Below, one piece after another: positions 1-22,762 of a DNA stretch of 33,083 bases. Numbering within the stretch: the stretch's first letter is position 1; each line of letters begins with the position of its first letter. Source of the DNA: Gemmatimonadota bacterium. Its GTDB lineage: Bacteria; Gemmatimonadota; Gemmatimonadetes; Gemmatimonadales; GWC2-71-9. The notes under the pieces are model-generated. The model made no database searches. It worked only from the letters and a program-made list of their open reading frames with translations, and was not told the DNA's origin. The DNA is taken from assembly GCA_029863245.1 (NCBI GenBank), contig JAOTVV010000033.1, positions 1-33,083 of the forward strand, in the 5' to 3' direction. Made by a program: the position numbers and the translations under genes.

Positions 1-2219
1 TCGGCGCGCACGCCACAGCGCCGTGCGCGAGCTGTCACGTGATCCCCGGCTATGCGCCGCTCTTCACCACGACCGACCAGAACGATTGTGTCGCGTGCCA
101 TCAGAGTGATCACGACGCCCAGCACGGGGCCGGTTTCCCCACCGACTGCGTGAGGTGTCACTCCCTCGATACCTGGGTTGGCGGGGCGTTCGACCATATC
201 ACCGCGTCGGCCGGATTCAACCTCGTCGGCGCGCACGCGCTCGCGCCGTGCGCCAGTTGTCACGTGATCCCCGGCTATGCGCCGCTCTTCACCACGACCG
301 ACCAGAACGATTGTGTCGCGTGCCATCAGAGTGATCACGACGCCCAGCACGGCGCCGGTTTCCCCACCGACTGCGTGAGGTGTCACACCCTCGATACCTG
401 GGTCGGCGGGGCGTTCGACCATATCACCGCGTCGGCCGGATTCAACCTCGTCGGCGCGCACGCCACGGCGCCGTGCGCGAGCTGTCACGTGATCCCCGGC
501 TATGCACCGCTCTTCACCACGACCGACCAGAACGATTGCGTCGGATGCCATCAGAGTGATCACGACGCCCAACACGGCGCTGGTTTCCCCACCGACTGCG
601 TGAGCTGTCACACTGTCGAAACCTGGGTTGGCGCGACGTTCAACCATAGGACGGCGTCAGGCGGCTTCCAGCTCCTCGGCGCGCACGCCACGGCGCCGTG
701 TGCCAGCTGTCACGTGATCCCCGGCTATGCGCCGCTCTTTACGACGACCGATCAGAACGACTGTGTCACGTGCCATCAGAGTGATCACGACGCCCAACAC
801 GGCGTTGGTTTCCCCACCGACTGCGTGAGCTGCCACACCGTCGATACCTGGACGGGTGGAACGTTCGACCACGTTAGTGCCTCGACTGGATTCGCTCTCG
901 TCGGCGCGCACGCCACGGCGCCGTGCGCCAGCTGTCACGTGATCCCCGGCTATGCGCCGCTCTTTACGACGACCAATCAAAACGACTGTATCGGGTGCCA
1001 TCAGAGTGATCATGACACCCAACACGGGGCCGGTTTCCCCACCGACTGCGTGAGCTGTCACACCCTCGATACCTGGGTCGGCGCGACGTTCGACCATATC
1101 ACGGCGTCGGCTGGATTCGCTCTCGTCGGCGCGCACGCCACGGCGCCGTGTGCCAGCTGTCACGTGATCCCCGGCTATGCGCCGCGCTTTACGACGACCA
1201 ATCAAAACGACTGTATCGGGTGTCATCAGAGTGATCACGACGCCCAACACGGGGCCGGTTTCCCCACCGACTGCGTGAGCTGTCACACCCTCGATACGTG
1301 GGTCGGCGCGACGTTCGACCATATCACGGCGTCGGCTGGATTCGCTCTCGTCGGCGCGCACGCCACGGCGCCGTGTGCCAGCTGTCACGTGATCCCGGGA
1401 TACGCGCCGCGCTTCACGACGACCAATCAAAACGACTGCATCGGGTGTCATCAGAGTGACCACGACGCCCAACACGGGAGTGGTTTCCCCACCGACTGCG
1501 TGAGCTGTCACAATCTCAATACCTGGCTCGGCGCGACGTTCGACCATGCGACGGCGTCGGCTGGATTCAACCTCGTCGGCGCGCACGCCACGGCGCCGTG
1601 TGCCAGCTGTCACGTGATCCCGGGATACGCGCCGCGCTTTGCGCCGACCAGTCAAAACGACTGTATCGCGTGCCATCAGAGTGATCACGACGCCCAACAC
1701 GGGAGTGGTTTCCCCACCGACTGCGTGAGCTGTCACAATCTCAATACCTGGCTCGGCGCGACGTTCAACCATACGACGGCGTCGGGCGGCTTCCAACTCC
1801 TCGGCGCCCACGACGTGGCGCCGTGTGCGAGCTGTCACGTGATCCCGGGATACGCGCCGCGCTTTGCGACGACCAATCACAACGACTGTATCGGGTGTCA
1901 TCAGAGTGACTATGACACACACCACGCCGGAACGGGGTTTTCGACCGACTGCCTGACGTGCCATACGATCAACACGTGGGGCGGGGCCACGTTTAACCAC
2001 GACGCACTGTACTTCCCCATCTACTCGGGCAGACATGCCGGCAGGTGGAGTAATGACTGCACAATCTGCCATGAGGTGCCTGACAACTTCCAGCAGTTCA
2101 CGTGCTTCAACTGCCACAAGCACAATAAGAGCTCAATGGATGACGAGCACCGAGGCGAGAATGGCTACGTGTACGAAAGCACGGCGTGCCTCCGGTGCCA
2201 CCCAGACGGGAGAGGGTAG
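1..2219 (+). CDS. Giant tandem-repeat multihaem c-type cytochrome (5' end missing, at least 30 haem sites)
   Basis: The reading frame is open from base 3, so the true start lies left of the window; the GTG at 39 is only an internal codon. The 738 visible residues contain nine repeats with an exact 225-bp period (repeat Cys codons at 24, 249, 474, 699, 924, 1149, 1374, 1599 and 1824). Each repeat has three CxxCH motifs (CASCH, C[VI]xCH, C[VL]xCH) and four other conserved His (QSDH, QH, F[DN]H, GAH) that could be distal haem ligands. A non-repeated tail adds CTICH, CFNCH and CLRCH, giving 30 haem-binding motifs. Such proteins are exported and haem-loaded in the periplasm; the high haem density fits long-range electron conduction. 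No signal peptide can be seen because the N-terminus is missing. It lies 26 bp upstream of the barrel gene in the same orientation. The cytochrome call is firm; the electron-wire role is inference. Confidence 0.95.
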   Translation, partial: GAHATAPCASCHVIPGYAPLFTTTDQNDCVACHQSDHDAQHGAGFPTDCVRCHSLDTWVGGAFDHITASAGFNLVGAHALAPCASCHVIPGYAPLFTTTDQNDCVACHQSDHDAQHGAGFPTDCVRCHTLDTWVGGAFDHITASAGFNLVGAHATAPCASCHVIPGYAPLFTTTDQNDCVGCHQSDHDAQHGAGFPTDCVSCHTVETWVGATFNHRTASGGFQLLGAHATAPCASCHVIPGYAPLFTTTDQNDCVTCHQSDHDAQHGVGFPTDCVSCHTVDTWTGGTFDHVSASTGFALVGAHATAPCASCHVIPGYAPLFTTTNQNDCIGCHQSDHDTQHGAGFPTDCVSCHTLDTWVGATFDHITASAGFALVGAHATAPCASCHVIPGYAPRFTTTNQNDCIGCHQSDHDAQHGAGFPTDCVSCHTLDTWVGATFDHITASAGFALVGAHATAPCASCHVIPGYAPRFTTTNQNDCIGCHQSDHDAQHGSGFPTDCVSCHNLNTWLGATFDHATASAGFNLVGAHATAPCASCHVIPGYAPRFAPTSQNDCIACHQSDHDAQHGSGFPTDCVSCHNLNTWLGATFNHTTASGGFQLLGAHDVAPCASCHVIPGYAPRFATTNHNDCIGCHQSDYDTHHAGTGFSTDCLTCHTINTWGGATFNHDALYFPIYSGRHAGRWSNDCTICHEVPDNFQQFTCFNCHKHNKSSMDDEHRGENGYVYESTACLRCHPDGRG
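24..2048 (+). repeat. Nine 225-bp in-frame tandem repeats inside the cytochrome gene
   Basis: Units begin at the first Cys codon of CASCH at 24 and recur every 225 bp without any length change up to 1824; the ninth unit diverges after its second CxxCH. Spacing is constant, but sequence variants are shuffled between units: units 1-2 share CVRCH and a GGAFDH block, units 3 and 8 share a TASGGFQLL block, units 7-8 share an NLNTWLGATF block. This pattern fits unit duplication plus gene conversion. The array probably continues left of the window. Read-length-limited assembly could have collapsed or expanded the copy number. Confidence 0.95.
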
Positions 2220-2245
2220 GCGACCGTGCCACTGAGGAGTCTGGG

Positions 2246-3781
2246 ATGAAGAGACTTGCGGCCTTCGTGGCCCTGCCGATCATACTAAGCCTGGTCGGGC
2301 CTGCTGCCCACGCGCAGCAAGGCCTCGACGTGGTGGTCGAATTCATTGCCGGATCCAACCTCTATATCAACGCCGGCACGGAGAGTGGAATCAGCGCTGA
2401 TGATACGCTGCTGGTCTATACCGAGGCGAACGGCGTGTTGCTTGGAGAGATCGTGGTGGTGAGCGCGACGCGTGAACGTGCCGTCGTCGCCTTCGCCGGC
2501 AGCCCATTCCAAGCCACTCGTGGAAAGGGGCTGTACGTCGTGCCCAAACACGCGTTCGTCGCCCCACCCCCCCAACCAGTCGCGCCGGCGGAACGCCAAC
2601 GACTGCGGCGTTCGTCTGAGGCAGGGATGCAAATCAGTGGCCGCCTGTCGTTGGATGTCAACGCGCTCCAAACGTGGAGCACGGCGCCTGAGATCGGTTC
2701 TACCGAACGCACGTTCACGACTCCGACCGCCCGGCTACGTGCGACGTTGACACACCTTCCCGGAGATCTGCGGCTTCAGGTCAACATGCGGGCATCCAGC
2801 CGCTACAGCTCCGGTCTGGTGCAACCAGACCAGTCGTTCCGGGTCTACCAGGCTAGTTTGGCACGGGATTGGAAGGGTGTTCAATTCCAACTCGGTCGCT
2901 TCTACAACCGGTACGAGACGTACAGCGGCTACTGGGATGGCATGCTGCTGCATTTCGGCGGCGACGGAATCGGCATTGGCAGCGCAGTCGGATTTCAACC
3001 GGCAACTTCAAACCAACGCTTCTCGGACCAGCTACCCAAGTATACGGTGTTCGTCAACGCTGGGCATCGCGGCCGGTCGGTGCGATACGCCACTGACCTC
3101 TCATTCCACGAGATCCGGCCCCGCAACGGTCTACGGAACCACATGTATGCCGGATGGTCGCAGCGTCTACAGGTGGGGGGATTCCAGCTGAGCCAGAACA
3201 TCCAGGTGGACCGTGACGAGACCACCAGGAAATGGGTGGTGACCCAACTCCTGGCGCGCTCGGCCATACCGCTGGGGAGGTGGGTCAGCCTCCAGGTTCG
3301 GTACGCCTTGCGTCAACCCTACTCCATGACACTGCTCGACAACCTGATCACGACACGACGCGACCAGGGATCCGTCGGGCTCCGTGTCTGGCTTGGCAAT
3401 GGTTCGCTCGGTGCCGACGCGACCGTCAACCAGGTCAGAGACGAGAGCAGGAGTTACACCTATGCCGGTTCCTTCAGCTTCCCCAATACGGCCATACTCG
3501 GGTTGGGGTTCAGTAGCTCGATTAGCTATTGGGTGCTCGAAGATAGGAAGGCCGTCTACCTATCGGGTGCCCTGAGCCGCACGTTTGGTCGCGTCCACCT
3601 ACAGGCATCGTATTACCGCTATCAGACGGATGGGATCACCACCGTCCTCGCGCACACCGGCGACCTGTCGCTCACGTTCCCCCTGACGAAACGGCTATAC
3701 TCATCCCTTCAAGGCCGGATCCAACGGGGTGAGAACTTGGAAAGTAATTTTCTCTTCGGCGGCTTCTGGTTGAACTTCTAA
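2246..3781 (+). CDS. Outer-membrane beta-barrel protein with N-terminal SH3-like domain, partner of the cytochrome
   Basis: The 511-residue product starts at ATG 2246, with GAGGAG at 2234-2239 as ribosome-binding site. Longer in-frame starts would overlap the cytochrome gene and lack a signal peptide at the N-terminus. Residues 1-24 are a typical Sec signal peptide ending AHA/QQ. Residues about 25-105 form a small beta-rich domain with the pattern 'NLYINAGTESGISADD' then 'GEIVVVSATRE', like the SH3-like domains of FlgT and related envelope proteins. From about residue 125 to the end there are alternating polar/aromatic strands with turns, and the protein ends in LNF, a C-terminal aromatic residue typical of assembled outer-membrane barrels. 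It has no CxxCH. By position it could be the porin sheath of a porin-cytochrome conduit, analogous to MtrB/PioB, but no family-level match to those is claimed. Its TAA overlaps the next ATG (TAATG), so the next gene is probably translationally coupled. Confidence 0.8.
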   Translation: MKRLAAFVALPIILSLVGPAAHAQQGLDVVVEFIAGSNLYINAGTESGISADDTLLVYTEANGVLLGEIVVVSATRERAVVAFAGSPFQATRGKGLYVVPKHAFVAPPPQPVAPAERQRLRRSSEAGMQISGRLSLDVNALQTWSTAPEIGSTERTFTTPTARLRATLTHLPGDLRLQVNMRASSRYSSGLVQPDQSFRVYQASLARDWKGVQFQLGRFYNRYETYSGYWDGMLLHFGGDGIGIGSAVGFQPATSNQRFSDQLPKYTVFVNAGHRGRSVRYATDLSFHEIRPRNGLRNHMYAGWSQRLQVGGFQLSQNIQVDRDETTRKWVVTQLLARSAIPLGRWVSLQVRYALRQPYSMTLLDNLITTRRDQGSVGLRVWLGNGSLGADATVNQVRDESRSYTYAGSFSFPNTAILGLGFSSSISYWVLEDRKAVYLSGALSRTFGRVHLQASYYRYQTDGITTVLAHTGDLSLTFPLTKRLYSSLQGRIQRGENLESNFLFGGFWLNF

Positions 3782-5094
3782 TGTCCAGCGACTCTCTCAT
3801 CATCCTGGCCATCGGCGTCGTGCTCGTGACGTCGATTTGGATCCCCGTGCTTGTGCGCCATCGGAAGGTCGAACGGGAAGCCGCGCACGCCGAAGAACGC
3901 GCGCTTCGTTATGGTTTGCACGAACCGGCGTCGTTGCACCCGCTCGTGCATCCCGGGGCTTGTATTGGCACGGGAAATTGTATTGCCGTCTGCCCGGAAG
4001 ACGATGTCCTCGCACTGCGTCACGGACAGGCACGCCCTATCAGTCCCGCACGATGCATCGGCCACGGCCTCTGCGAACGCGCCTGTCCAGTGGAAGCGAT
4101 TCAACTCGTGTTCGGTACGGCGAAACGCGGAGTGGACATCCCGCGTATCAAGAAGAACTTCGAAACGAATGTACCCGGCATATACATCGTCGGGGAGTTG
4201 GGCGGCATGGGTCTCATTCGGAATGCGTTCGAACAGGGGCGGCAATGCATCGAGGGCATCGCCAAAGAACGCAAGGGACCCGCCAATGTGTTGGACGTCC
4301 TGATCGTCGGCTGCGGTCCTGCCGGACTCTCAGCAGCCTTGAACTGCCGCCATCACAAGCTGCGCTTCAAGACACTCGAGAAAGAGGACATCGGTGGTAC
4401 CGTCCGATATTATCCGCGGAAGAAAGTCGTCATGACCTCACCGGTGCAAGTTCCGGGATACGGAAGGCTTGGATTTCGCGAGATTCTGAAAGAGGAACTC
4501 ATCGCGCTGTGGGACGAAATCGTCGCCAAGACCGGACTGACGGTCAACACGCGTGAATCGGTCGAGCGGGTGACGCCGACCGCAGACGGCTGCTTTGAAG
4601 TGTCCACCAACAAGACTACGTACAAAACCAAACGCGTGGTGTTGGCCATCGGCCGGCGGGGCGTGCCCAGGAAGCTCGACGTTCCCGGAGAGGAACTTCC
4701 CAAAGTCATCTATTCGCTGCTGGAGCCGGAAGCGTACCAACGGGACCGCATCCTCGTGGTCGGCGGTGGAGACTCGGCCATCGAAGCTGCTCTGGCGCTG
4801 GCCGACCAGCCCAGCAACCAGGTGAAGATCTCGTACCGCAAGGACGCATTCAGTCGCATCAAGCCCCGAAACCGTGAACGGATCGAGGAAGCCGTGGGAC
4901 GGCGGCATGTGGAGATCCTCTGGTCAACGAACGTCAAGGAGATCAAGCCCAAATCTGTCGTCTACACAAACGGTCGTGACGGGCCCTTTGAAGTGGAAAA
5001 CGACGTCATAGCAGTCTTTGTGGGTGGCGAGCTGCCCACCAAGTTCCTAAGAGATTGCGGGGTTGCGATCGACACCAAGTTCGGAACACCCTGA
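3781..5094 (+). CDS. Membrane-anchored iron-sulphur/flavin NAD(P)H oxidoreductase
   Basis: A 437-residue protein. Residues 4-25 are one hydrophobic helix followed by RHRK, so the rest is probably cytoplasmic. Residues 61-72 and 92-103 are two ferredoxin-like motifs, C61-x5-C67-x3-C71P and C92-x5-C98-x3-C102P; in both the usual second Cys is replaced (T64, H95), suggesting 3Fe-4S or unusually ligated clusters. Residues 129-160 contain a VPGIYIVGELGG segment like the C-terminal FAD-contacting motif of thioredoxin-reductase-type flavoproteins. It is followed by the FAD Rossmann motif GCGPAG (177-182) and the NAD(P) motif GGGDSA (328-333), with SYRKDAFSR after it. No redox-active CxxC is present, so it resembles TrxR-like ferredoxin/NAD(P) reductases rather than true thioredoxin reductase. 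It overlaps the barrel stop codon by 1 base. Likely role: moving electrons between NAD(P)H and the haem chain through unidentified partners; the direction is unknown. Confidence 0.85.
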   Translation: MSSDSLIILAIGVVLVTSIWIPVLVRHRKVEREAAHAEERALRYGLHEPASLHPLVHPGACIGTGNCIAVCPEDDVLALRHGQARPISPARCIGHGLCERACPVEAIQLVFGTAKRGVDIPRIKKNFETNVPGIYIVGELGGMGLIRNAFEQGRQCIEGIAKERKGPANVLDVLIVGCGPAGLSAALNCRHHKLRFKTLEKEDIGGTVRYYPRKKVVMTSPVQVPGYGRLGFREILKEELIALWDEIVAKTGLTVNTRESVERVTPTADGCFEVSTNKTTYKTKRVVLAIGRRGVPRKLDVPGEELPKVIYSLLEPEAYQRDRILVVGGGDSAIEAALALADQPSNQVKISYRKDAFSRIKPRNRERIEEAVGRRHVEILWSTNVKEIKPKSVVYTNGRDGPFEVENDVIAVFVGGELPTKFLRDCGVAIDTKFGTP

Positions 5095-5195: not shown

Positions 5196-5262
5196 GAGCT
5201 GCCGACCAAGTTCCTCCAGAGCTGCGGCGTGCAGATCAACCGGAAGTTCGGAGAACCGTAAC
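5196..5262 (+). pseudogene. 3' remnant of a second flavoprotein copy
   Basis: The last 22 codons before the TAA at 5260 read RELPTKFLQSCGVQINRKFG plus EP. The intact flavoprotein ends GELPTKFLRDCGVAIDTKFG plus TP, so 15 of 22 residues agree and both stop right after the same motif. At DNA level the last 57 bases are about two-thirds identical. Upstream of about 5196 the similarity disappears and no start or other motif of the family is present. This is best read as the tail of a tandem paralogue whose body was lost, possibly by recombination with the intact copy. It lies 168 bp downstream of the corresponding segment of the intact gene. Confidence 0.75.
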
Positions 5263-5500: not shown

Positions 5501-6739
5501 TTACAGCGTTTCGAGAAACCGCAGCAGCTGTGACCGCTTGCGGTGTGACAGCTCCAGGAATCGATCTCGCGAGCCTGTGGCTTCTCCACCGTGCATCTCA
5601 ATAGCTTGTTCGATGGTCGTGGCTCGGCCGTCGTGCATGTAAATGGTCGAGAACCGCAGCCCCATCAAAGGCTCCGTACGGAACTCCGATGGCAAGGCCT
5701 CGCCGTTGCAGATGTCGGACAGCTCCTCGCCCATGTCGTGAAGCAGCAGGTCGGTGTACGCGAAAACCTTCTTACGGCTCATAGCGCGAATCGGGTGGCG
5801 ATCGGTTCGGAGGGCAGGCACGTGACACGAGGCGCAGCCGATCTCCGAGAACACCCGCGCTCCCCGAACCGCGTTCATTCCGCCATGCACCCGTGACGGC
5901 GGAGCGAGGAACTGCACGAAGCGAATCGACGCTTCCAGATCTTCTTCGCTGATTTCCGGATCCAGCGTCGGATCCACACCATCGGGCAGTGGTTCCCCGG
6001 CAATGGTCTGTTCGTCCGGCTCAGCCTCACTCGTGATCCCTTGTTCGTAGATCCAGGCATCGGTGATGAAATCGGTGAGATTGGAAACCTGTCCCTTCCG
6101 CCCGAACCGACCGATACCATCATCAGTCCAGTGCGGCCGACCCGAAATGCCGTCGTGGTCGCGGTCGTCAGGATCGGCGTGTCGCAGGATCTCATGCTCT
6201 GCCACCGCTTCCAGCAAGCCGAACCCGAAGAGATCGGGCGTGGTGCGCAGGCCAACGCCAGTCACACCAGGCGGTAACGGCTCCTTGGTAATACCGGCCT
6301 CCCGTAACAGCGGTGTCACGCTGTCCTGCACGACGGACCCGCCATTGATGTCAGTGAACCCCTCTCAAGTCTCGCCATCAAACGCAGTAGCGTGGGTTTC
6401 AATCTGTATGCCAAAGCCACCAGTTACCGGACCCGAGTGACAAGTGGCACATGAGTTCGAGTTGAAGAGCGGACCCAGTCCCGTCTCCGGAGTGAAGATG
6501 GTCTGAAACACCACACTTCCGAGCTCGAACTCGCGGCGCTGAGAGCGATTCAGGGACGGCAGCGGACGTCCAGCCCGTACTGCGTTGAGAAACGCGGTGA
6601 AGTCTAGACCGTCCGACTCCGACGCATCGGGACCGGTCAGCTCGTCCGTACACGCGACAGTCGCGGCCACGATGCCCGCCAGGAGTGCGGGAAGAGCGCG
6701 CCGGTGCACGTGACGTTTGCGGCTGCGACAGATAGACAT
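5501..6739 (-). pseudogene. Di-haem oxidoreductase (DHOR/thiol-oxidoreductase-like) interrupted by an in-frame TGA
   Basis: Reading right to left from ATG 6739 (ribosome-binding site AAGGAGGT at 6744-6751) the frame encodes a signal or lipoprotein leader ending VAC (Cys30), then a first haem site CATCH (residues 97-101). It meets TGA at 6367-6365 (codon 125), with no frameshift. The same frame continues: 'DHDGISGRP' and 'IGRFGRKGQ' are characteristic of the di-haem oxidoreductase family (distantly related to cytochrome c peroxidase/MauG), a second haem site CASCH lies at codons 302-306, and the frame ends at TAA 5503-5501. Total span is 413 codons, near the family's lower size range. TGA could derive from CGA (Arg) by one transition. 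Options: a true nonsense mutation, a sequencing error, or (unlikely) readthrough. If real, only a truncated one-haem protein is made. No MauG-type partner gene is adjacent. Confidence 0.8.
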
Positions 6740-6841
6740 CGATACCTCCTTTTGGAGTGCAGCGCGACTCGCTGGAGGGCGCGATCGTGACGGGTGGGTC
6801 TCTTCGGCATTCGATCCCGTACCCACCGAAGGTTCGGCGGC

Positions 6842-6886
6842 AGCGCCCCGTGTCGATATACGACATGTCGAGCTGTGTGGGGCGCT
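6842..6886. promoter_or_regulatory. Nested inverted repeat, possible operator or structured leader
   Basis: AGCGCCCC (6842-6849) pairs perfectly with GGGGCGCT (6879-6886). Inside lies TGTCGATATACGACA (6851-6865) overlapping the perfect palindrome CGACATGTCG (6861-6870), giving three alternating TGTCG/CGACA half-sites. It lies about 100 bp upstream of the di-haem gene start. It could bind a dimeric regulator or form RNA structure; no regulator is assigned. Confidence 0.4.
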
Positions 6887-7158
6887 CACCCGGGTCGCGC
6901 GGGAGAACATGCATGCCTTGCAGTGTCGCCAACCGTGGCAGTCACGATTGCGACGGAGGGAGCCTGCGGCCAATATGCTGACATGGCGTAAGACGATCCG
7001 TGAGGTGGGTCACTTGCACCGCGTGGACGTTGTCCGTTTTCGGTCAACGGAAGCCACGATCAGACGGCGCGGACGTTCTCTAGCAAGATTCTATCGGCGC
7101 TGAGTGCGTGGAGGTCATGGCAGCCACGTCGAAGGCAGCACCCGCCCGCCGGCACGCA

Positions 7159-7202
7159 CACCTTGATGCCCCGCGGTTCGCGTGTTGATTCCTGCATGCC
7201 GC
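7159..7202 (+). repeat. 44-bp dispersed repeat, copy 2
   Basis: It is the partner of 5321-5364 (40 of 44 identical, same orientation). It ends 36 bp before the ATG of the DUF885 gene, so this copy may include native upstream sequence of that gene. Confidence 0.8.
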
Positions 7203-7238
7203 CTGTTCATCCGCACCCGGCCTACGGAGATCGACACC

Positions 7239-9023
7239 ATGCGCCGCACCACCAATCGGCTCACCCTCCTCACGCTGCTCGCCACCCTGACGGCTCCGCT
7301 CGTCCACGCAACCCGTGCAACCGCTCAGGCACCTGAGCCTGCGGCCACCAGCGCGCTGCGTGACACCATCGAGCTGATCGCCGCGGATCAGCGGGCCCTG
7401 TCTCGCCGCTACGGGGTTGCCTACTCACCCGCTCAACGCGAGCGCATGCGGGAGTTCTACACGAGCTGGCGCGCCCGCCTCGCGGCCGTGGATTTCGAGG
7501 CACTGAGCCAAGAGGGCCGAGTGGACTACGTGCTGCTCGACACCGAGCTGCGCTACCGGCTCACCACACGGGACCGAGAGGCTCGGCAGTACGAGGAGAT
7601 GCTGCCCTGGCTCCCGTTCGCACCTACCATCATGGACCTCGAGGAGACGCGGCGGCGCCTGGAGCCGATCGATCCGGCCCAGATCGCCGCGACCCTCGCG
7701 CGGCTGGCGCAACGGATCGACAGCACTCGGCAACATGTGGCAGAGGTGTGGAGCGGGAACGCGGGACGACGATCCACGACACCCACACTCGCGCGCGTCG
7801 TCGCCCGCCGCACCGGGATGCTGCTCCAGGAACTGCGCGAGACCCTGCAGCACTGGAACCGGTTCTACGCCGGATACGATCCGATCTACACCTGGTGGAC
7901 CGCCGAACCCTACGCCAAAGCCGATTCGGCACTGGCGTCGTACGGCAAGGTCCTCCGCGAGACCGTGCTCGGCATCCGCCCGGGAGCGCCCGAGCCAATG
8001 GTCGGCGATCCCATCGGCGCCGACGGCCTCGAGATAGACCTCGCGCATGAGATGATTCCCTACTCCATCGATGAGCTGATCGCCATCGCGGAGCGGGAGT
8101 TCGCGTGGTGTGAGGCGGAATACCGGAAAGCCGCGCGGGAGATGGGCTTCGGTGACGACTGGAGGGCCGCGCTCGAGCAGGTGAAGCAGCGCTACGTGCC
8201 GCCCGGTGACCAGCCGCGGCTCATCCGCGATCTCGCGAGAGAGGCGGAGGCGTTCGTCGAAGAGCACGGCCTCCTAACCGTACCGCCGCTCGCCAAAGAG
8301 GTCTGGCGCATGGAGATGATGTCGCCGGAGCGGCAGCGCGTGGCGCCGTTCTTCCTGGGCGGCGAAGTCATCCAGGTATCGTACCCCACCGACGGCATGA
8401 CCCACGAGGAAAAACTCATGAGCATGCGGGGCAATAACCCGCACTTCTCCCGCGCCACCGTGCACCACGAGCTGATCCCCGGTCACCATCTCCAGGGGTT
8501 CATGACCTCACGCTATAACGCGCATCGCGGGATGTTCTCCACGCCGTTTTGGGGCGAAGGCTGGGCGCTCTACTGGGAGATGCTGCTCTGGGACCTCGAC
8601 TTCCCACGCAGTCCGGAGGATCGCATCGGCATGCTGTTTTGGCGTTCCCACCGCGCGGCGCGGATCATCTTCTCGCTCCGGTTCCACCTGGGCACCATGA
8701 CGCCCGACGAAGCGGTGGACTTCCTGGTGGAGCGCGTGGGACACGAGCGGGCGAACGCCGAGGGGGAGGTGCGCCGGTCGGTGGCGGGAGATTATTCGCC
8801 GCTGTACCAGGCCGCGTACATGCTCGGCGGTATCCAGTTCCGCGCGCTTCACCAAGACCTCGTGGGTTCCGGGCAGATGACGGACCGCGAGTTCCACGAC
8901 GCGATCCTGCACGGGGGCCGGATGCCGGTGGAGATGGTGCGGGCTCGGCTCACCGGTGAGCCGCTGACGCGCGACTACTCGGCCCGCTGGCGGTTCGCAG
9001 GGGACCCGCTCTCACGGCGGTAG
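7239..9023 (+). CDS. Secreted DUF885 family metallopeptidase-like protein
   Basis: A 594-residue protein. ATG 7239 was chosen because it is followed by a clean Sec signal peptide (residues 1 to about 31, ending ATAQA) and preceded by CGGAGA at 7225-7230; an earlier in-frame start at 7182 would bury the signal. The hallmark is H409-H-E-L-I-P-G-H-H417, the HExxPGHH-type motif of DUF885 proteins, which look like zinc-dependent peptidases of the gluzincin type; a downstream 'EGWALYWE' supplies a likely further Glu ligand. The length matches the family (about 550-620). It is probably periplasmic, acting on peptides or peptide-like substrates; the actual substrate is unknown. A second DUF885 protein at 20825-22762 has a Tat leader instead. 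It appears to be a single-gene unit, 10-37 bp before the next lipoprotein gene. Confidence 0.9.
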   Translation: MRRTTNRLTLLTLLATLTAPLVHATRATAQAPEPAATSALRDTIELIAADQRALSRRYGVAYSPAQRERMREFYTSWRARLAAVDFEALSQEGRVDYVLLDTELRYRLTTRDREARQYEEMLPWLPFAPTIMDLEETRRRLEPIDPAQIAATLARLAQRIDSTRQHVAEVWSGNAGRRSTTPTLARVVARRTGMLLQELRETLQHWNRFYAGYDPIYTWWTAEPYAKADSALASYGKVLRETVLGIRPGAPEPMVGDPIGADGLEIDLAHEMIPYSIDELIAIAEREFAWCEAEYRKAAREMGFGDDWRAALEQVKQRYVPPGDQPRLIRDLAREAEAFVEEHGLLTVPPLAKEVWRMEMMSPERQRVAPFFLGGEVIQVSYPTDGMTHEEKLMSMRGNNPHFSRATVHHELIPGHHLQGFMTSRYNAHRGMFSTPFWGEGWALYWEMLLWDLDFPRSPEDRIGMLFWRSHRAARIIFSLRFHLGTMTPDEAVDFLVERVGHERANAEGEVRRSVAGDYSPLYQAAYMLGGIQFRALHQDLVGSGQMTDREFHDAILHGGRMPVEMVRARLTGEPLTRDYSARWRFAGDPLSRR

Positions 9024-9763: not shown

Positions 9764-9854
9764 TTCGCGCTGTCGCGTGCAGCAGCCGCGTGGGCGCCCG
9801 TAGCTCGACCCGGCATTGCCGGCCAGGCCCACGTCGAACCGACTGGTGGTGCTG

Positions 9855-12800
9855 GTGACGGATGTCTTCCTGGGGATCGATGTCGGATCGACGACGGTCA
9901 AGGCCGTCGCCGTGGACCGAACCACCTCCATCCTCGCCCAGCGGTACGTTCGCGCGCACGGGCAGCCCCGGCCGACCATCCGGGGAGCGGTTCGGGACGT
10001 CCTGCAGGTCGTCGATCCCTCGGATATCCGCGGCGTGGGGCTCACCGGCTCCGGCGGCGGGCCGACCGCGGCGCTCATCGGGGGCTCTCACGTCAATGAG
10101 CTGATCGCCCAGACTCGAGCCTTAGGCGAGCTTTACCCCCAGGCGCGTACGGTAATCGAGATCGGCGGACAGGACAGCAAGTTCCTGTCGCTTCAATGGG
10201 ACGCCGACATCCGCCGCATGACCCTACTGGATTTCGCGATGAACACCGTCTGCGCGGCGGGGACAGGATCGTTCCTCGACCAGCAAGCCGAACGGCTGGG
10301 CATCACGATCGACCGAGAGTTCTCGACCCTGGCGCTCGAATCCCGGAACCCCGCCAGGATCGCCGGCCGGTGCACGGTGTTCGCCAAGTCGGACATGATC
10401 CATTTGCAGCAGAAGGGCACACCACTCCCGGACATCCTTGCCGGTCTCTGTCTCGCCCTGGCGCGCAACTTCAAGAGCACCATTGGGAAGGGTAAGGCGT
10501 TCATCCCGCCAATCCTGTTCCAAGGAGGCGTGGCATACAACGGCGGGGTGGTGCGGGCCTTCGAGACCGCACTGAAACTGGAGTCGGGCGAGCTGATCGT
10601 TCCCGAGCACCATTGGCTGATGCCCGCCATCGGCGCCGCACTACTGGCGATGGACGAGGTAGACGACGGCCGATTCACCGTGTTCCGCGGCCTCGATCCT
10701 CTCGAGACGGCGGTCCGCACGGCGCCGTCGAGTCGCAAGAGCCTGGCTCCGCTGTCCGCACCGACGCCGTCAGACGCGGGAGCCGCTTTATCGCCACTCC
10801 CAATACCATCCTCTCGGGAAACCGTGTACGTCGGCATCGACGTCGGCTCGATCAGCACCAAGGTCGTGCTCATCGACCGAGACGCACGCGTGCTGGCGCA
10901 CCGCTACTTGCCCACGGCCGGCGCGCCCCTCGACGCGGTGCGTCGGGGACTCCGCGAGGTCGGGATGGAGGCCGACGGCTGGGCAGACGTGAGGGGCGTC
11001 GGCGCGACCGGCTCGGGACGGTACCTGACCGCGGATTTCGTCGGGGCCGACGTCGTGCGCAATGAGATCACCGCGCAGGCGCGGGCGGCCACCGCCATCG
11101 ATCCCACGGTGGACACGATCTTCGAGATCGGCGGGCAGGACAGCAAGTATGTGCGGCTGGACCACGGTGCGGTGGTGGACTTCGCCATGAACAGCGCCTG
11201 CGCCGCCGGTACCGGATCGTTCTTGGAGGAACAGGCCGACCGGCTGCGGATCGACATCGAGCGGGATTTCAGTCGCCTGGCCCTCTCGTCCGCCGCGCCG
11301 GCATGTCTGGGCGAGCGATGCACCGTCTTCATGGAATCCGACCTCGTGCACCACCAGCAACAGGGTGCCGGGGTGAACGAGCTGGCGGCTGGCTTGGCCT
11401 ACTCCATCGCGCAGAACTACCTCAACCGGGTGGTCGACGGTCGCGCGGTGGGCCGCAACGTGTTCTTCCAGGGAGGTGTGGCCGGAAACTCGAGCGTCGT
11501 TGCCGCCTTGCGGATGCTCACCGGCCGCCGGATTACCGTGCCGCCGCATCACGAGGTCACCGGCGCGATCGGTGTGGCGATCCTCGCCTTGGAACAGTTC
11601 GAAGTGCGCCGCGAACAATCGTCGCAGGATGGGGACCTCCACCTGCCGACACGGTTCAGGGGATTCGATCTCTCCACTCGCGAGTACGAAGCCACGACCT
11701 TCGAGTGCAAGGCGTGCGCCAATCTGTGTGAAATCAGTCAAGTGGTCATCGACCACGAGGCCCCGATCTTCTATGGCGCCCGTTGCGACAAGTTCGAGGA
11801 GGCCGGGCGTACCCCGGCGCACGGCGGCGCGGCCGAGGTCCCTGACCTCTTTGCGGAGCGGACCGCGCTGCTCCTGGGCGATTACGCGGCGCCCAACGGG
11901 CGTCGCAATGGGCGCCGGCGCGTCGCCATCCCGCGGGCGCTCGTGTTTCACGACCTGTTCCCGTATTGGCGGACCTTCTTCGGGAACCTGGACATCGAGC
12001 TGGTTCTCTCGGACAGCACCAATCCACGCATCCTACGCACTACGTTGGAGGCCGCTTCGGTCGAGACATGTCTGCCCGTGAAGCTGGTGTACGGCCATGT
12101 GCTCGACCTCGTCGAGCAGGATGCCGACTTCATCTTCCTGCCCAGCGTGATCAACCGCGAAAACGTGGCCCCGGGCCAAGCCGCGAACATGTACTGCCCG
12201 TTCATACCGGCCGCGTCGCATCTCGTGAGGGCTCACGTGGAGTCCAACGGCGGCCGACACCGCGTGCTGCACTTCCCGCTCCACCTGCTGTGGGACCAGG
12301 TGGGACGTGGCGAGTTGAAGCAGCTTGCCGGTCAGTTGGGGGTGGCGAAACGGCGCATCGGTGCCGCCGCGGCCGCCGGCGCGGCCGCGCAGCGCGAATT
12401 CTACGCAGACCTGCGACGGCGTGGTCGCGAGGTGCTGGAGCAGCTCGACCGCGGGCGACCGGCGGCCGTGTTGGTTGGCCGGCCATACAATGCCTGCGAC
12501 CCCGGCGCCTGCCAGGACTTGCCGCTCAAGGTGCGCAAGTTGGGCGTGCTCCCGATCCCCATGGACTTCCTGCCGCTCGAGACCGTTGACGTCTCCGCTC
12601 GGTACGGCAACATGTTTTGGCGCAGCGGGCAGGACATCCTCGCGGCAGCAACGCTCATCAGGGACGATCCCCGGCTCCACGCCATCTATCTGACCAACTT
12701 CAACTGCGGACCCGACTCGTTCATCATCAGCTTCTTCCGGGAGATCATGGGCGACAAGCCGTTCCTCGAGCTGGAGCTGGACGATCACATGGCCGACGCG

Positions 12801-12875
12801 GGCGTGGTGACCCGTTGCGAAGCGTTCTTCGAGAGCCTGGGGGTGGGACGCGGCCGCCTCGGAGCGTCGACGTGA
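9855..12875 (+). CDS. Doubled 2-hydroxyacyl-CoA dehydratase-type activase (BadF/HgdC ASKHA) fused to DUF2229 region
   Basis: About 1006 residues from GTG 9855 (GTG 9846, GTG 9849 and TTG 9816 are in-frame alternatives; none has a strong ribosome-binding site). Domain 1 (about 5-300) and domain 2 (about 324-600) are both ASKHA ATPase modules. Each has GIDVGS, IGGQDSK, CAAGTGSFL and RCTVF motifs; the Cys in the last two are those that bridge the single 4Fe-4S cluster between subunits in HgdC. The C-terminal part (about 620-1006) carries ECKACANLCE, GARCDKF and NRENVAPGQ, typical of the DUF2229 portion of large activase-related proteins. Known activases use ATP to push an electron to a low-potential dehydratase cluster. 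Here one chain could act as an internal activase dimer. The partner-type domain is encoded next door with a 4-bp overlap. The substrate is unknown; no CoA-dehydratase pathway genes are nearby. Confidence 0.88.
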   Translation: MTDVFLGIDVGSTTVKAVAVDRTTSILAQRYVRAHGQPRPTIRGAVRDVLQVVDPSDIRGVGLTGSGGGPTAALIGGSHVNELIAQTRALGELYPQARTVIEIGGQDSKFLSLQWDADIRRMTLLDFAMNTVCAAGTGSFLDQQAERLGITIDREFSTLALESRNPARIAGRCTVFAKSDMIHLQQKGTPLPDILAGLCLALARNFKSTIGKGKAFIPPILFQGGVAYNGGVVRAFETALKLESGELIVPEHHWLMPAIGAALLAMDEVDDGRFTVFRGLDPLETAVRTAPSSRKSLAPLSAPTPSDAGAALSPLPIPSSRETVYVGIDVGSISTKVVLIDRDARVLAHRYLPTAGAPLDAVRRGLREVGMEADGWADVRGVGATGSGRYLTADFVGADVVRNEITAQARAATAIDPTVDTIFEIGGQDSKYVRLDHGAVVDFAMNSACAAGTGSFLEEQADRLRIDIERDFSRLALSSAAPACLGERCTVFMESDLVHHQQQGAGVNELAAGLAYSIAQNYLNRVVDGRAVGRNVFFQGGVAGNSSVVAALRMLTGRRITVPPHHEVTGAIGVAILALEQFEVRREQSSQDGDLHLPTRFRGFDLSTREYEATTFECKACANLCEISQVVIDHEAPIFYGARCDKFEEAGRTPAHGGAAEVPDLFAERTALLLGDYAAPNGRRNGRRRVAIPRALVFHDLFPYWRTFFGNLDIELVLSDSTNPRILRTTLEAASVETCLPVKLVYGHVLDLVEQDADFIFLPSVINRENVAPGQAANMYCPFIPAASHLVRAHVESNGGRHRVLHFPLHLLWDQVGRGELKQLAGQLGVAKRRIGAAAAAGAAAQREFYADLRRRGREVLEQLDRGRPAAVLVGRPYNACDPGACQDLPLKVRKLGVLPIPMDFLPLETVDVSARYGNMFWRSGQDILAAATLIRDDPRLHAIYLTNFNCGPDSFIISFFREIMGDKPFLELELDDHMADAGVVTRCEAFFESLGVGRGRLGAST

Positions 12876-20824: not shown

Positions 20825-22762
20825 ATGAATCGCCGCACCTTCGTCCGGAAGACTTCACAGACCGCCATGGGCTTTGGCATCCTGCGCTACGCAGCCGCCT
20901 GCCGCCCCGCCGGCACGGGTGATGACCGATTCGCCGAGCTGCGCGATCGGTACTTCGTTCGCACGCTGGAGCTGAACCCGGTCACGTCCACCTACCTCGG
21001 CGGCGACGGGTATAGCGACGCGCTGGCGGGGGTGAACGGCCGGCTGCGCGATTTCTCTCCCGACGGCATCGCCACCGAGGTCGCGTTCTATCGGGACACC
21101 GTGCGCGAGCTGGAGCGCTTCGACCCCGATTCGTTGAGCGAAGCTGACCGCATCGACCATACGGTCATGGGCGCGCAGATCGCGTACATGCTGCGCCAGC
21201 TCGACCAGCGTCGCTATCACGAGCGCTGTTTGGACACCTACGTCGCCGAACCGTTCCGCGGCGTGGACTGGCAGATGCAGCAGATGCAGACGCTCGAGGG
21301 GGGCCTGCTCGGCACCGAGGACGAATGGGCGTTGGTCGTCAGCCGCGTTCGGGCCGTGCCGCAATACCTCGACGTAGCACGAGGCAATCTCCTGGCCGGC
21401 AAGGCGGCGGGGAACCGGCCCGACTGGCGCATGGTGGAGGAAGACGGCATCACCGCTTCGCGCGCGGCCGCCGAGTACTTCAGCAGGACGCTGGGGGACA
21501 CGGCGAGAGGGTATCTGGGTGCCCGGCCGTTCGCCGCTCGCATCGCGGCCGACATCGACGCAGCCGGCCGGAGCGCGGCCGACGCGTTCGAAGCGTTCGC
21601 GGGGTTCCTCGAACGCGAACTGGACCCAGGCGACCGCACCGACCGCTACGCAGCAGGCGAAGAGGAATACGCCTGGCGGGTCCGCCACTGCCTGCAGGAC
21701 ACTCGCACGCCGGCCGAGCTGTACGAATACGGCGCGGCGCAGGTGGCGCTTTACGAGCACCAGATCTTCACGGTCGCTGAGGAGGTGGCGCGCGAGGCCG
21801 GGCTCGGCCTGTCCTTCGCCACACCGCCCGAGCGCCGCGCGAGCGTGCGCGCGGTGATGGAGCACCTCTCCACGGATTCGCCGACGACGGATGACGAGCT
21901 GCTCGGCTGGTACCGCGACGCCGCGGCGCGGGCCGTGGCGTACGGTCGGGAGCATGGGCTGTTCGACATCCCGGCCGATTACCGGTTGGACATCGTGCCC
22001 ACGCCGCCAGTGCTCCAGGGGACGATCGGCGCGGCCTACTATCCGGCGCCGCCGTTCAAGACGTCGGGCGTGGGACGGTTCTATCTCTCGCCCACGGGGA
22101 ACGACCCGGCTGCGCTGCGCGAGAACAACCGCGCCTCCGTGGCCGACACCGCCGTGCACGAGGGATTCCCGGGGCACGACTGGCACTTCAAGTACATGAC
22201 GCTCCATGCAGCGGAGATTTCACCCATCCGCTGGCTCACACCCGGCGCCGTCGAAGACTCGTTCTCGATGTGGGAGGACTCGATGGCGTCGGAGGGCTGG
22301 GCGCTCTACTCGGAAGAGCTGATGGCCGAGCCGGTCGCGGACCGCCCACACGGGTTCTACTCGGCGGGGGACTACCTCTACGAGCTGCAGGGACAGCTGC
22401 TCCGCGCGGTCCGCGTGCGCGTGGACGTCGGGATCCACACCGGCCGCATGACCTTCGACGAGGCGGTGGACTACTTCGCCGAACACGTGAGCTTCTATCC
22501 CGGCGCCTGCGCGCGCGCCGGCGGGGACGCAACGGCACGCGCGATCTGCGACGGCGCGCGGAAGTCGATGTACCGCTACTCGAAGTGGCCGACCCAGGCG
22601 ATCACCTACAACCTGGGAAAAAACGCGATCGTCGGACTGCGGGAGGCATACCGGGAGAAGCTGGGCGCAGACTACTCGCCCACGACCTTCCACGAGCGGT
22701 TCATGGCGATGGGCACGATCCCGGCGGGCTACTTCCGGAGCGTCTTCCTGGAGCGCGCCTAG
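20825..22762 (+). CDS. DUF885 family metallopeptidase-like protein with Tat-type leader
   Basis: A 645-residue protein from ATG 20825, with AGGA about 10 bp upstream. The N-terminus MNRRTFVRKTSQTAMGFG is a Tat-like leader (RRTFVRK) ending near AAAC, so a Tat-exported lipoprotein is possible. The metal-binding motif is TAVHEGFPGHDWHFKY (HExxPGH), and a later ASEGWALYSEEL gives the downstream Glu. It is longer than the 7239 protein, and similarity between the two is limited to the catalytic parts, so they are separate lineages rather than a recent duplication. The use of Tat suggests folding or metal loading before export. It converges on the CLC gene with a 30-bp gap. Confidence 0.9.
   Translation: MNRRTFVRKTSQTAMGFGILRYAAACRPAGTGDDRFAELRDRYFVRTLELNPVTSTYLGGDGYSDALAGVNGRLRDFSPDGIATEVAFYRDTVRELERFDPDSLSEADRIDHTVMGAQIAYMLRQLDQRRYHERCLDTYVAEPFRGVDWQMQQMQTLEGGLLGTEDEWALVVSRVRAVPQYLDVARGNLLAGKAAGNRPDWRMVEEDGITASRAAAEYFSRTLGDTARGYLGARPFAARIAADIDAAGRSAADAFEAFAGFLERELDPGDRTDRYAAGEEEYAWRVRHCLQDTRTPAELYEYGAAQVALYEHQIFTVAEEVAREAGLGLSFATPPERRASVRAVMEHLSTDSPTTDDELLGWYRDAAARAVAYGREHGLFDIPADYRLDIVPTPPVLQGTIGAAYYPAPPFKTSGVGRFYLSPTGNDPAALRENNRASVADTAVHEGFPGHDWHFKYMTLHAAEISPIRWLTPGAVEDSFSMWEDSMASEGWALYSEELMAEPVADRPHGFYSAGDYLYELQGQLLRAVRVRVDVGIHTGRMTFDEAVDYFAEHVSFYPGACARAGGDATARAICDGARKSMYRYSKWPTQAITYNLGKNAIVGLREAYREKLGADYSPTTFHERFMAMGTIPAGYFRSVFLERA

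Follow-up and report, generated by a model that had tools for sequence, protein, structure and literature searches.

Which enzyme would feed electrons to a porin-cytochrome conduit whose cytochrome carries tens of haems? This question is raised by one end of a contig from a Gemmatimonadota bacterium. The window analysed here, 33,083 nucleotides long, is the entire contig JAOTVV010000033.1, one of 75 in assembly GCA_029863245.1 (a 94% complete genome). The nearest named matches to its proteins come from Gemmatimonadota. The first three genes of the window encode, in order on the forward strand, the C-terminal part of a multihaem c-type cytochrome, a predicted outer-membrane beta-barrel, and a predicted membrane-anchored iron-sulfur (Fe-S) flavoprotein. 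Judged from sequence, these genes are very likely the downstream end of a porin-cytochrome gene cluster of the PCC3 type. PCC3 has four components in the main text of He et al. 2017 (PMC5566968), and the flavoprotein looks like a fifth because of its co-occurrence with PCC3 parts in our sets of 80 related loci and 298 genomes.

The coordinates of the open reading frames (ORFs) confirm the tight spacing that a first-pass annotation of this DNA had pointed out. The cytochrome stop codon and the barrel gene are 26 bases apart, and the barrel stop and flavoprotein start codons overlap in TAATG.

Co-occurrence of the flavoprotein family with PCC3 components

An alignment of the flavoprotein family matched at least 586 genome-contig stretches, 505 of which encode a relative, and the best 80 were taken as named loci. 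These loci were chosen for flavoprotein similarity alone and not for gene context, and their flanks extend up to 10 kb, often less. At least one PCC3 part is encoded in 71 of them. The PCC3 inner-membrane protein (IMP) is present in 68, a cytochrome frame with at least eight haems in 63 (two or more such frames in 54), and a barrel in 43. Loci with PCC3 parts come from groups that include the Bacteroidota, Ignavibacteria, Nitrospirae, and Gemmatimonadota. Cultivable environmental bacteria that carry the complete cluster are Arenibacter sp. F20364 (L091), Yeosuana marina (L072), and Emticicia aquatica (L099). Flavoprotein relatives were also found in 12 of a set of 61 genomes, the window's own included. 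The 11 other relatives are accompanied by an IMP (nine cases), a big cytochrome frame (eight), or a barrel (three), and seven of these 11 are on contigs that end inside cytochromes.

The reverse test covered 298 Gemmatimonadota genomes, with at most seven IMP and five flavoprotein candidates scored per genome, a depth at which misses are possible. Strong matches were defined by E values of 1e-50 for the IMP (31 of the 37 genomes with a match) and 1e-60 for the flavoprotein (31 of 123), because the matches drop sharply there. The next flavoprotein matches (1e-48 and weaker) begin near residue 136-170 and are without the ferredoxin region. By these cut-offs, 29 genomes have both proteins, two have only the IMP, two have only the flavoprotein, and 265 have neither (Fisher exact p ~1e-35, uncorrected for relatedness). 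The two flavoprotein-only genomes are the window's own and one with a partial match. Genomes with both proteins represent 19 genera of six families. The two genes share a contig in 26 of the 29, always less than 8 kb apart and within 1 kb in 19.

Both surveys thus bear out the expectation that these families co-occur in other genomes, and they support the proposal that a conserved Fe-S flavoprotein of the NAD(P)H type accompanies an electron conduit in the outer membrane. Since the neighbourhood is conserved in other genomes, the arrangement is not a matter of chance. The idea that the genes are chance neighbours with unrelated functions runs against the phylum-wide statistic and its taxonomic breadth, found no supporting point, and can be given almost no credence.

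The cytochrome and the barrel

The cytochrome frame (positions 3..2219, forward strand) is open from the first bases of the window to its stop at 2219. It encodes 738 amino acids with 30 CxxCH motifs, or 24.6 residues per haem, and is assigned by its ORF, motif count, and C-terminal signature. The first base of the window is base 1 of the contig, and the N-terminus of the protein is lost there. A long haem chain had been claimed for this gene and is borne out, with the qualification that the word "giant" describes a lower bound, because the contig begins inside the repeats. Searches of the same genome for the lost upstream part gave nothing outside this contig. Eight repeats of 75 residues (225 bp), each with three haems, occupy positions 3..1802 of the same strand. 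Adjacent units are 83-97% identical in DNA, the haem spacing of 21-20-34 recurs, and a distinct C-terminal unit follows the eighth repeat. Very many haems, internal repeats, and a low ratio of residues to haems are features of PCC3 cytochromes that are all seen here.

The window protein also shares the C-terminal signature FPIYSGxH...W..C..CH...F.C..CH...GY.Y.S..C..CHP with the barrel-adjacent cytochromes of loci L022, L024, L025, L035, L036, and others. Its haem rhythm, written as 34-21-20, is like that of the 64-haem frame of L035 (34-22-21). It would therefore be the counterpart of the cytochrome that PCC3 clusters encode beside the barrel and that is termed "extracellular," a location that is putative for the window protein. 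Frames of 61-70 CxxCH motifs are predicted in L035, L046, L057, L098, and L100, which come from symbiont, Saprospiraceae, Rhodothermia, and Rubrivivax assemblies.

The barrel gene (2246..3781, forward strand) adjoins the multihaem cytochrome gene, as the porin-like gene does in PCC3. The 511-residue product has a signal-like hydrophobic N-terminus and ends in Phe. Its AlphaFold2 model (mean pLDDT 80.9) comprises an N-terminal beta domain (residues 27-101) and 22 long strands (residues 129-510). Foldseek and VIA-align matched this model to outer-membrane barrels, and homologs of the protein are encoded downstream of giant cytochromes in relatives. MtrB was not among the matches listed for the barrel by either program, and a relation to it is possible. 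The barrel might sheath either the giant cytochrome or the one of about 20 haems known from relatives. The window cytochrome and barrel together fit the PCC3 type of porin-cytochrome system.

A predicted Fe-S flavoprotein with permuted domain order

Domain and profile matches assign the third ORF (3781..5094, forward strand; 437 amino acids) to a predicted membrane-anchored flavoprotein. We read it as a circular permutation of a protein of the YpdA and thioredoxin reductase (TrxR) type, fused to a ferredoxin region. A hydrophobic segment at about residues 5-25 (3793..3855, forward strand), followed by RHRK, is the predicted N-terminal membrane helix. Such a segment is present in 86 of 92 family frames, and in 81 of those 86 its C-terminal side is the more positive. 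By the positive-inside rule, this pattern is consistent with an enzyme domain on the cytoplasmic side.

Motif reading places a ferredoxin-like region at residues 61-103 (3961..4089, forward strand), with the form C-x2-T-x2-C-x3-CP ... C-x2-H-x2-C-x3-CP. A standard 2[4Fe-4S] protein has two CxxCxxCxxxCP motifs. In the window protein, the second Cys is replaced by Thr in motif 1 and by His in motif 2. The His is found in 91 of the 92 family members, with one unread. At the second-Cys position of motif 1, the family has Cys (40), Ser (38), Thr (8), Ala (3), or Gly (2), for a replacement in 51 of 91. Because the second Cys is exchanged in motif 2 and often in motif 1 as well, the clusters are non-standard, and their likely forms are 3Fe or His/Ser-ligated 4Fe.

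Domain matches and motif reading locate the FAD/NAD(P) core at residues 171-435 (4291..5085, forward strand). The closest solved structure to this core is YpdA (E 4e-50). In ordinary members, the FAD site is closed by a C-terminal tail ("ETNVPGIYIAG..."). This tail is not at the C-terminus of the window protein but is placed between the ferredoxin region and the core, at residues 118-160 (FETNVPGIYIVGELGG..., 4132..4260, forward strand). The permutation first showed as a weak second match to the chains of solved YpdA and TrxR structures, in the position expected for it. The reading was settled by hhalign, which aligned the permuted segment from 33 members (borders read automatically) with the C-terminal tails of 20 ordinary relatives at a probability of 96% and an E value of 4e-9, whereas three control pieces all scored below 1% against the same tails. 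A pattern search recovered the permuted order in 84 of the 92 members and did not find the pattern in the other eight. Against two genes of this genome that encode TrxR-like proteins, the permuted profile scored no better than the native one (141.5 and 85.0 versus 143.1 and 88.0 bits).

The cysteines of the ordinary enzymes are missing. The CxxC of the TrxR NADPH domain occurs in none of the 85 readable members of the 92 within the 45 residues that precede the NADPH motif, and a single Cys is found in this stretch in 11 members. Solved YpdAs (7a7b and 7a76) have a catalytic Cys after the GxGP of the FAD strand. At this site the window protein has Ala (in GCGPAGL), as do 31 of the 32 family members, among the 92, that are readable there, and the remaining one has Gly. 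In view of these absences and the domain order, we reject a plain thioredoxin or bacillithiol reductase.

The same observations bear on whether the flavoprotein stands outside the electron path and makes or guards the cytochromes, either by reducing thiols or haem as they mature or by redox sensing. The relationship to TrxR and YpdA is in keeping with such a role, and proteins of 20-70 haems need many reduced thiols. However, readable members have no CxxC, and where YpdA has its Cys they carry Ala or Gly. Both points argue against such a role, and we regard it as highly doubtful. The earlier description of an inner-membrane, NAD(P)H-type Fe-S flavoprotein stands as far as the predicted membrane segment, the FAD/NAD(P) core, and a ferredoxin-like region are concerned, but this last region departs from the standard 2[4Fe-4S] motif.

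The family is large, with 7,999 of 8,000 scored candidates matching at E 1e-60 or better. Public annotation gives its members names like "thioredoxin reductase" and "NAD(P)-binding domain-containing protein." In one branch (L025, L026, and L027), an extra zinc-ribbon-like CxxC...CxxC insert lies between the membrane helix and the ferredoxin region. About 100 bases past the intact window gene, a 21-codon echo of its C-terminus (ELPTKFLQSCGVQINRKFGEP, then a stop) occupies positions 5196-5261 of the forward strand and is perhaps what is left of a second copy or of a recombination event.

Gene order in relatives and the inner-membrane protein

Related loci suggest what has been lost from the contig. 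In L035, whose flavoprotein is 59% identical to that of the window, the order is IMP, 20-haem cytochrome, 64-haem cytochrome, barrel, and flavoprotein, with a stop/start overlap of the window's kind. L108 likewise keeps the order cytochrome, barrel, and flavoprotein, and both loci have the IMP upstream. Our best guess, by analogy with L035, is that an IMP and a cytochrome of about 20 haems would lie to the left of window base 1. Other arrangements exist. L025 encodes IMP, flavoprotein, 23-haem cytochrome, 31-haem cytochrome, and barrel on one strand. A second cytochrome of about 20-24 haems is present in many related loci.

The PCC3 IMP is described in the main text of He et al. (PMC5566968) as a protein of about 300 amino acids with two WX3HX13H motifs and SGxxG. 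All 50 IMPs in our alignment have two or more HX13H motifs, and the SGxxG residues are invariant or nearly so. The IMP is a membrane protein with four such histidines and probably binds two b haems. Its AlphaFold2 model is a helical bundle (pLDDT 90), and searches of its sequence against solved structures gave only chance-level matches (best E 0.1). The three commonest of the weak Pfam matches at E 0.1 or better among the 50 were to DUF4405 (17 proteins, best 9e-6), Ferric_reduct (four, best 6e-4), and Ni_hydr_CYTB (three, best 0.01). Ferric_reduct and Ni_hydr_CYTB are haem-b families.

These loci also modify the view that the flavoprotein replaces a quinol dehydrogenase and couples directly to the conduit. 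An NAD(P)H-type partner is indeed conserved. However, an IMP with two HX13H motifs is encoded in most related loci as well, and many of them add a cytochrome of about 20-24 haems. Any coupling would therefore proceed through both.

A proposed electron route

We give about an even chance to the proposal that the window belongs to a PCC3-type cluster moving electrons from cytoplasmic NAD(P)H to an acceptor outside the cell, via the flavoprotein, IMP, cytochromes, and barrel. The analysis establishes the three genes with their order, the co-occurrence of the families, the permuted order of the domains, and the motifs for haems and ligands. For this organism, we infer the IMP and the cytochrome of about 20 haems, the electron donor, the direction of flow, and all contacts for electron transfer. 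The path would begin at the flavoprotein anchored in the inner membrane, whose FAD would take electrons from NAD(P)H. Single electrons would then move from its Fe-S domain to the pair of b haems predicted in the IMP, in a split arrangement like that of NADPH oxidases or MsrQ. A predicted periplasmic cytochrome of about 20 haems would carry the electrons from the IMP to the outer membrane, where the giant cytochrome and the barrel together would present them at the cell exterior. The final acceptor may be minerals, partner cells, or oxygen. The pair of flavoprotein and IMP might then be an independent solution to the kind of entry used by Fre and MsrQ, with a permuted, anchored, Fe-S-bearing enzyme. 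Electrons that move outward run with the membrane potential, as they do in NADPH oxidases, and for this reason we favour the outward direction. More broadly, many phyla may share a five-part, NAD(P)H-driven PCC3 wire in which a permuted, His/Ser-modified ferredoxin-flavoprotein and a split NADPH oxidase-like di-haem-b protein feed cytochromes of 20 to 70 haems and bypass the quinone pool, a generalization that we hold tentatively and at somewhat less than even weight.

Several observations weigh against this reading. Nine of the 80 named loci lack any PCC3 part. Four of these nine extend no more than about 300 bases beyond the gene and three have one flank of about 2 kb, yet L101 and L056 have longer flanks. 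The haem-b nature of the IMP is drawn from its four histidines and the weak Pfam matches, and its model has no Foldseek match at E 0.001. Two IMP profiles found no IMP in the window's own assembly, whose contig is cut off on the upstream side, and the 20-haem cytochrome of L035, used as a query, matched only the window cytochrome there. Quinone may also feed the IMP. Two genomes of the phylum have a strong IMP match and no flavoprotein, and counting six genomes with weaker IMP matches brings the IMP-only total to eight. Many proteobacterial loci have the flavoprotein and IMP genes in divergent orientation, and hence the two are not on one transcript there.

The last two points, concerning IMP-only genomes and divergent genes, also favour a quinone-linked PCC3, in which the quinone pool would trade electrons with the IMP, leaving the flavoprotein as a side entry or as a separate, co-regulated NAD(P)H dehydrogenase. 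He et al. proposed in their main text that the IMP is a quinone-active cytochrome b, arguing from its HX13H motifs (PMC5566968). Against this stand the near one-to-one co-occurrence in one phylum and a neighbourhood kept over many groups. In addition, 31 of 80 IMP frames in the named loci are on the same strand as the flavoprotein and no more than 600 bases away, which suggests a direct partner; 34 are on the opposite strand within 1,500 bases. We judge a quinone-linked system to be unlikely, though it deserves serious attention.

The direction of flow could also be reversed. Electrons from an extracellular donor such as Fe(II), Mn(II), a solid, or an electrode would then pass through the cytochromes to the flavoprotein, which, perhaps with another input, would make reduced pyridine nucleotide. 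Inward movement opposes the membrane potential, and Fe(II) as a donor is much too oxidising to reduce NAD(P)+. The first listing of PCC3 concerned Fe(II) oxidisers (PMC5566968, main text), and four of the 80 locus titles name Gallionella or Gallionellaceae (L042, L049, L053, and L074). In strain ES-1, however, both PCC3 clusters are lower on Fe(II) than on thiosulfate, according to the text of PMC8788666, an observation that counts against the inward route and is also awkward for our own reading. On balance, we consider an inward conduit improbable.

Relation to known systems

MtrCAB and MtoAB, with CymA or CbcL, embody the same idea of a barrel and multihaem cytochromes, but with another inner-membrane entry and far fewer haems. 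As in PCC3, the window barrel gene adjoins a repeat-rich cytochrome gene with very many haems, and relatives add a cytochrome of about 20-24 haems and an IMP of about 300 amino acids. Unlike the four-part PCC3 of the main text of PMC5566968, the window and most related loci have an added gene for an Fe-S flavoprotein. PCC4 from the same paper likewise combines a porin and cytochromes with an IMP that carries these His motifs. For PCC4, "other redox-active proteins" are reported, among them an Fe-S gene of pfam13247 that belongs to one subgroup. However, the PCC4 cytochromes have 4, 5, and 10 haems, there is no extracellular cytochrome, and the Fe-S gene is of another Pfam family.

The flavoprotein appears to be new to this context. 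The words thioredoxin, ferredoxin, and 4Fe-4S are absent from the main text of PMC5566968. In the article texts of PMC12442390, PMC10734462, PMC8788666, and PMC12016527, the flavoprotein is not named in a PCC3 context. Literature searches over titles and the starts of abstracts found no description of it. A table in PMC10734462 contains a row for a "4Fe-4S ferredoxin iron-sulfur binding domain protein," picked for a haem-like motif. This is probably a different protein, because the four Gallionellaceae flavoproteins in our set are without a haem-like motif. PCC3 function itself is untested according to the text of PMC12442390.

According to PMC11031084 and PMC5676040, MsrQ, a haem-b protein, receives its electrons from the flavin reductase Fre. 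Both MsrPQ/Fre and the NADPH oxidases resemble our proposal in that a cytosolic NAD(P)H flavoprotein feeds a di-haem-b membrane protein and electrons reach the far side. In contrast to those systems, the flavoprotein here is of the TrxR type, permuted, Fe-S-fused, and predicted to be anchored, rather than of the ferredoxin-NADP reductase (FNR)/Fre type, and the acceptor would be a multihaem wire. NADPH oxidases fuse a ferric reductase (FRD) domain to an FNR domain, whereas the IMP and flavoprotein are encoded by separate genes and the flavin domain is TrxR-type. The FAD/NAD(P) core is like that of YpdA, thioredoxin reductase, and TrxR-type ferredoxin-NADP reductase (7a7b, 7a76, 2zbw, and 3ab1). 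Unlike them, the flavoprotein has its C-terminal FAD segment moved before the core, an added ferredoxin region and membrane helix, and no CxxC.

Other genes in the window

Beyond the cluster, a di-haem oxidoreductase (DHOR) lies on the reverse strand at positions 5501-6973. Its C-terminal part is one frame (5501-6331), and a lipoprotein-like N-terminal part with CxxCH, which has no Pfam match, seems to be in another frame (6365-6973). The split reflects a broken gene or a sequencing error. Two DUF885 proteins are encoded on the forward strand (7182-9023 and 20825-22762), as is a CoA-enzyme activase that contains two domains of the BadF/BadG type and DUF2229 (9816-12875).

Significance

PCC3 systems are widespread and among the most haem-rich of the proposed electron conduits. 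The permuted core and the CxxHxxCxxxCP motif provide a clean sequence marker for a family that has been hidden under its public annotation. A conserved NAD(P)H-type partner offers a concrete, testable alternative to quinone-linked entry and suggests that electrons would move outward.

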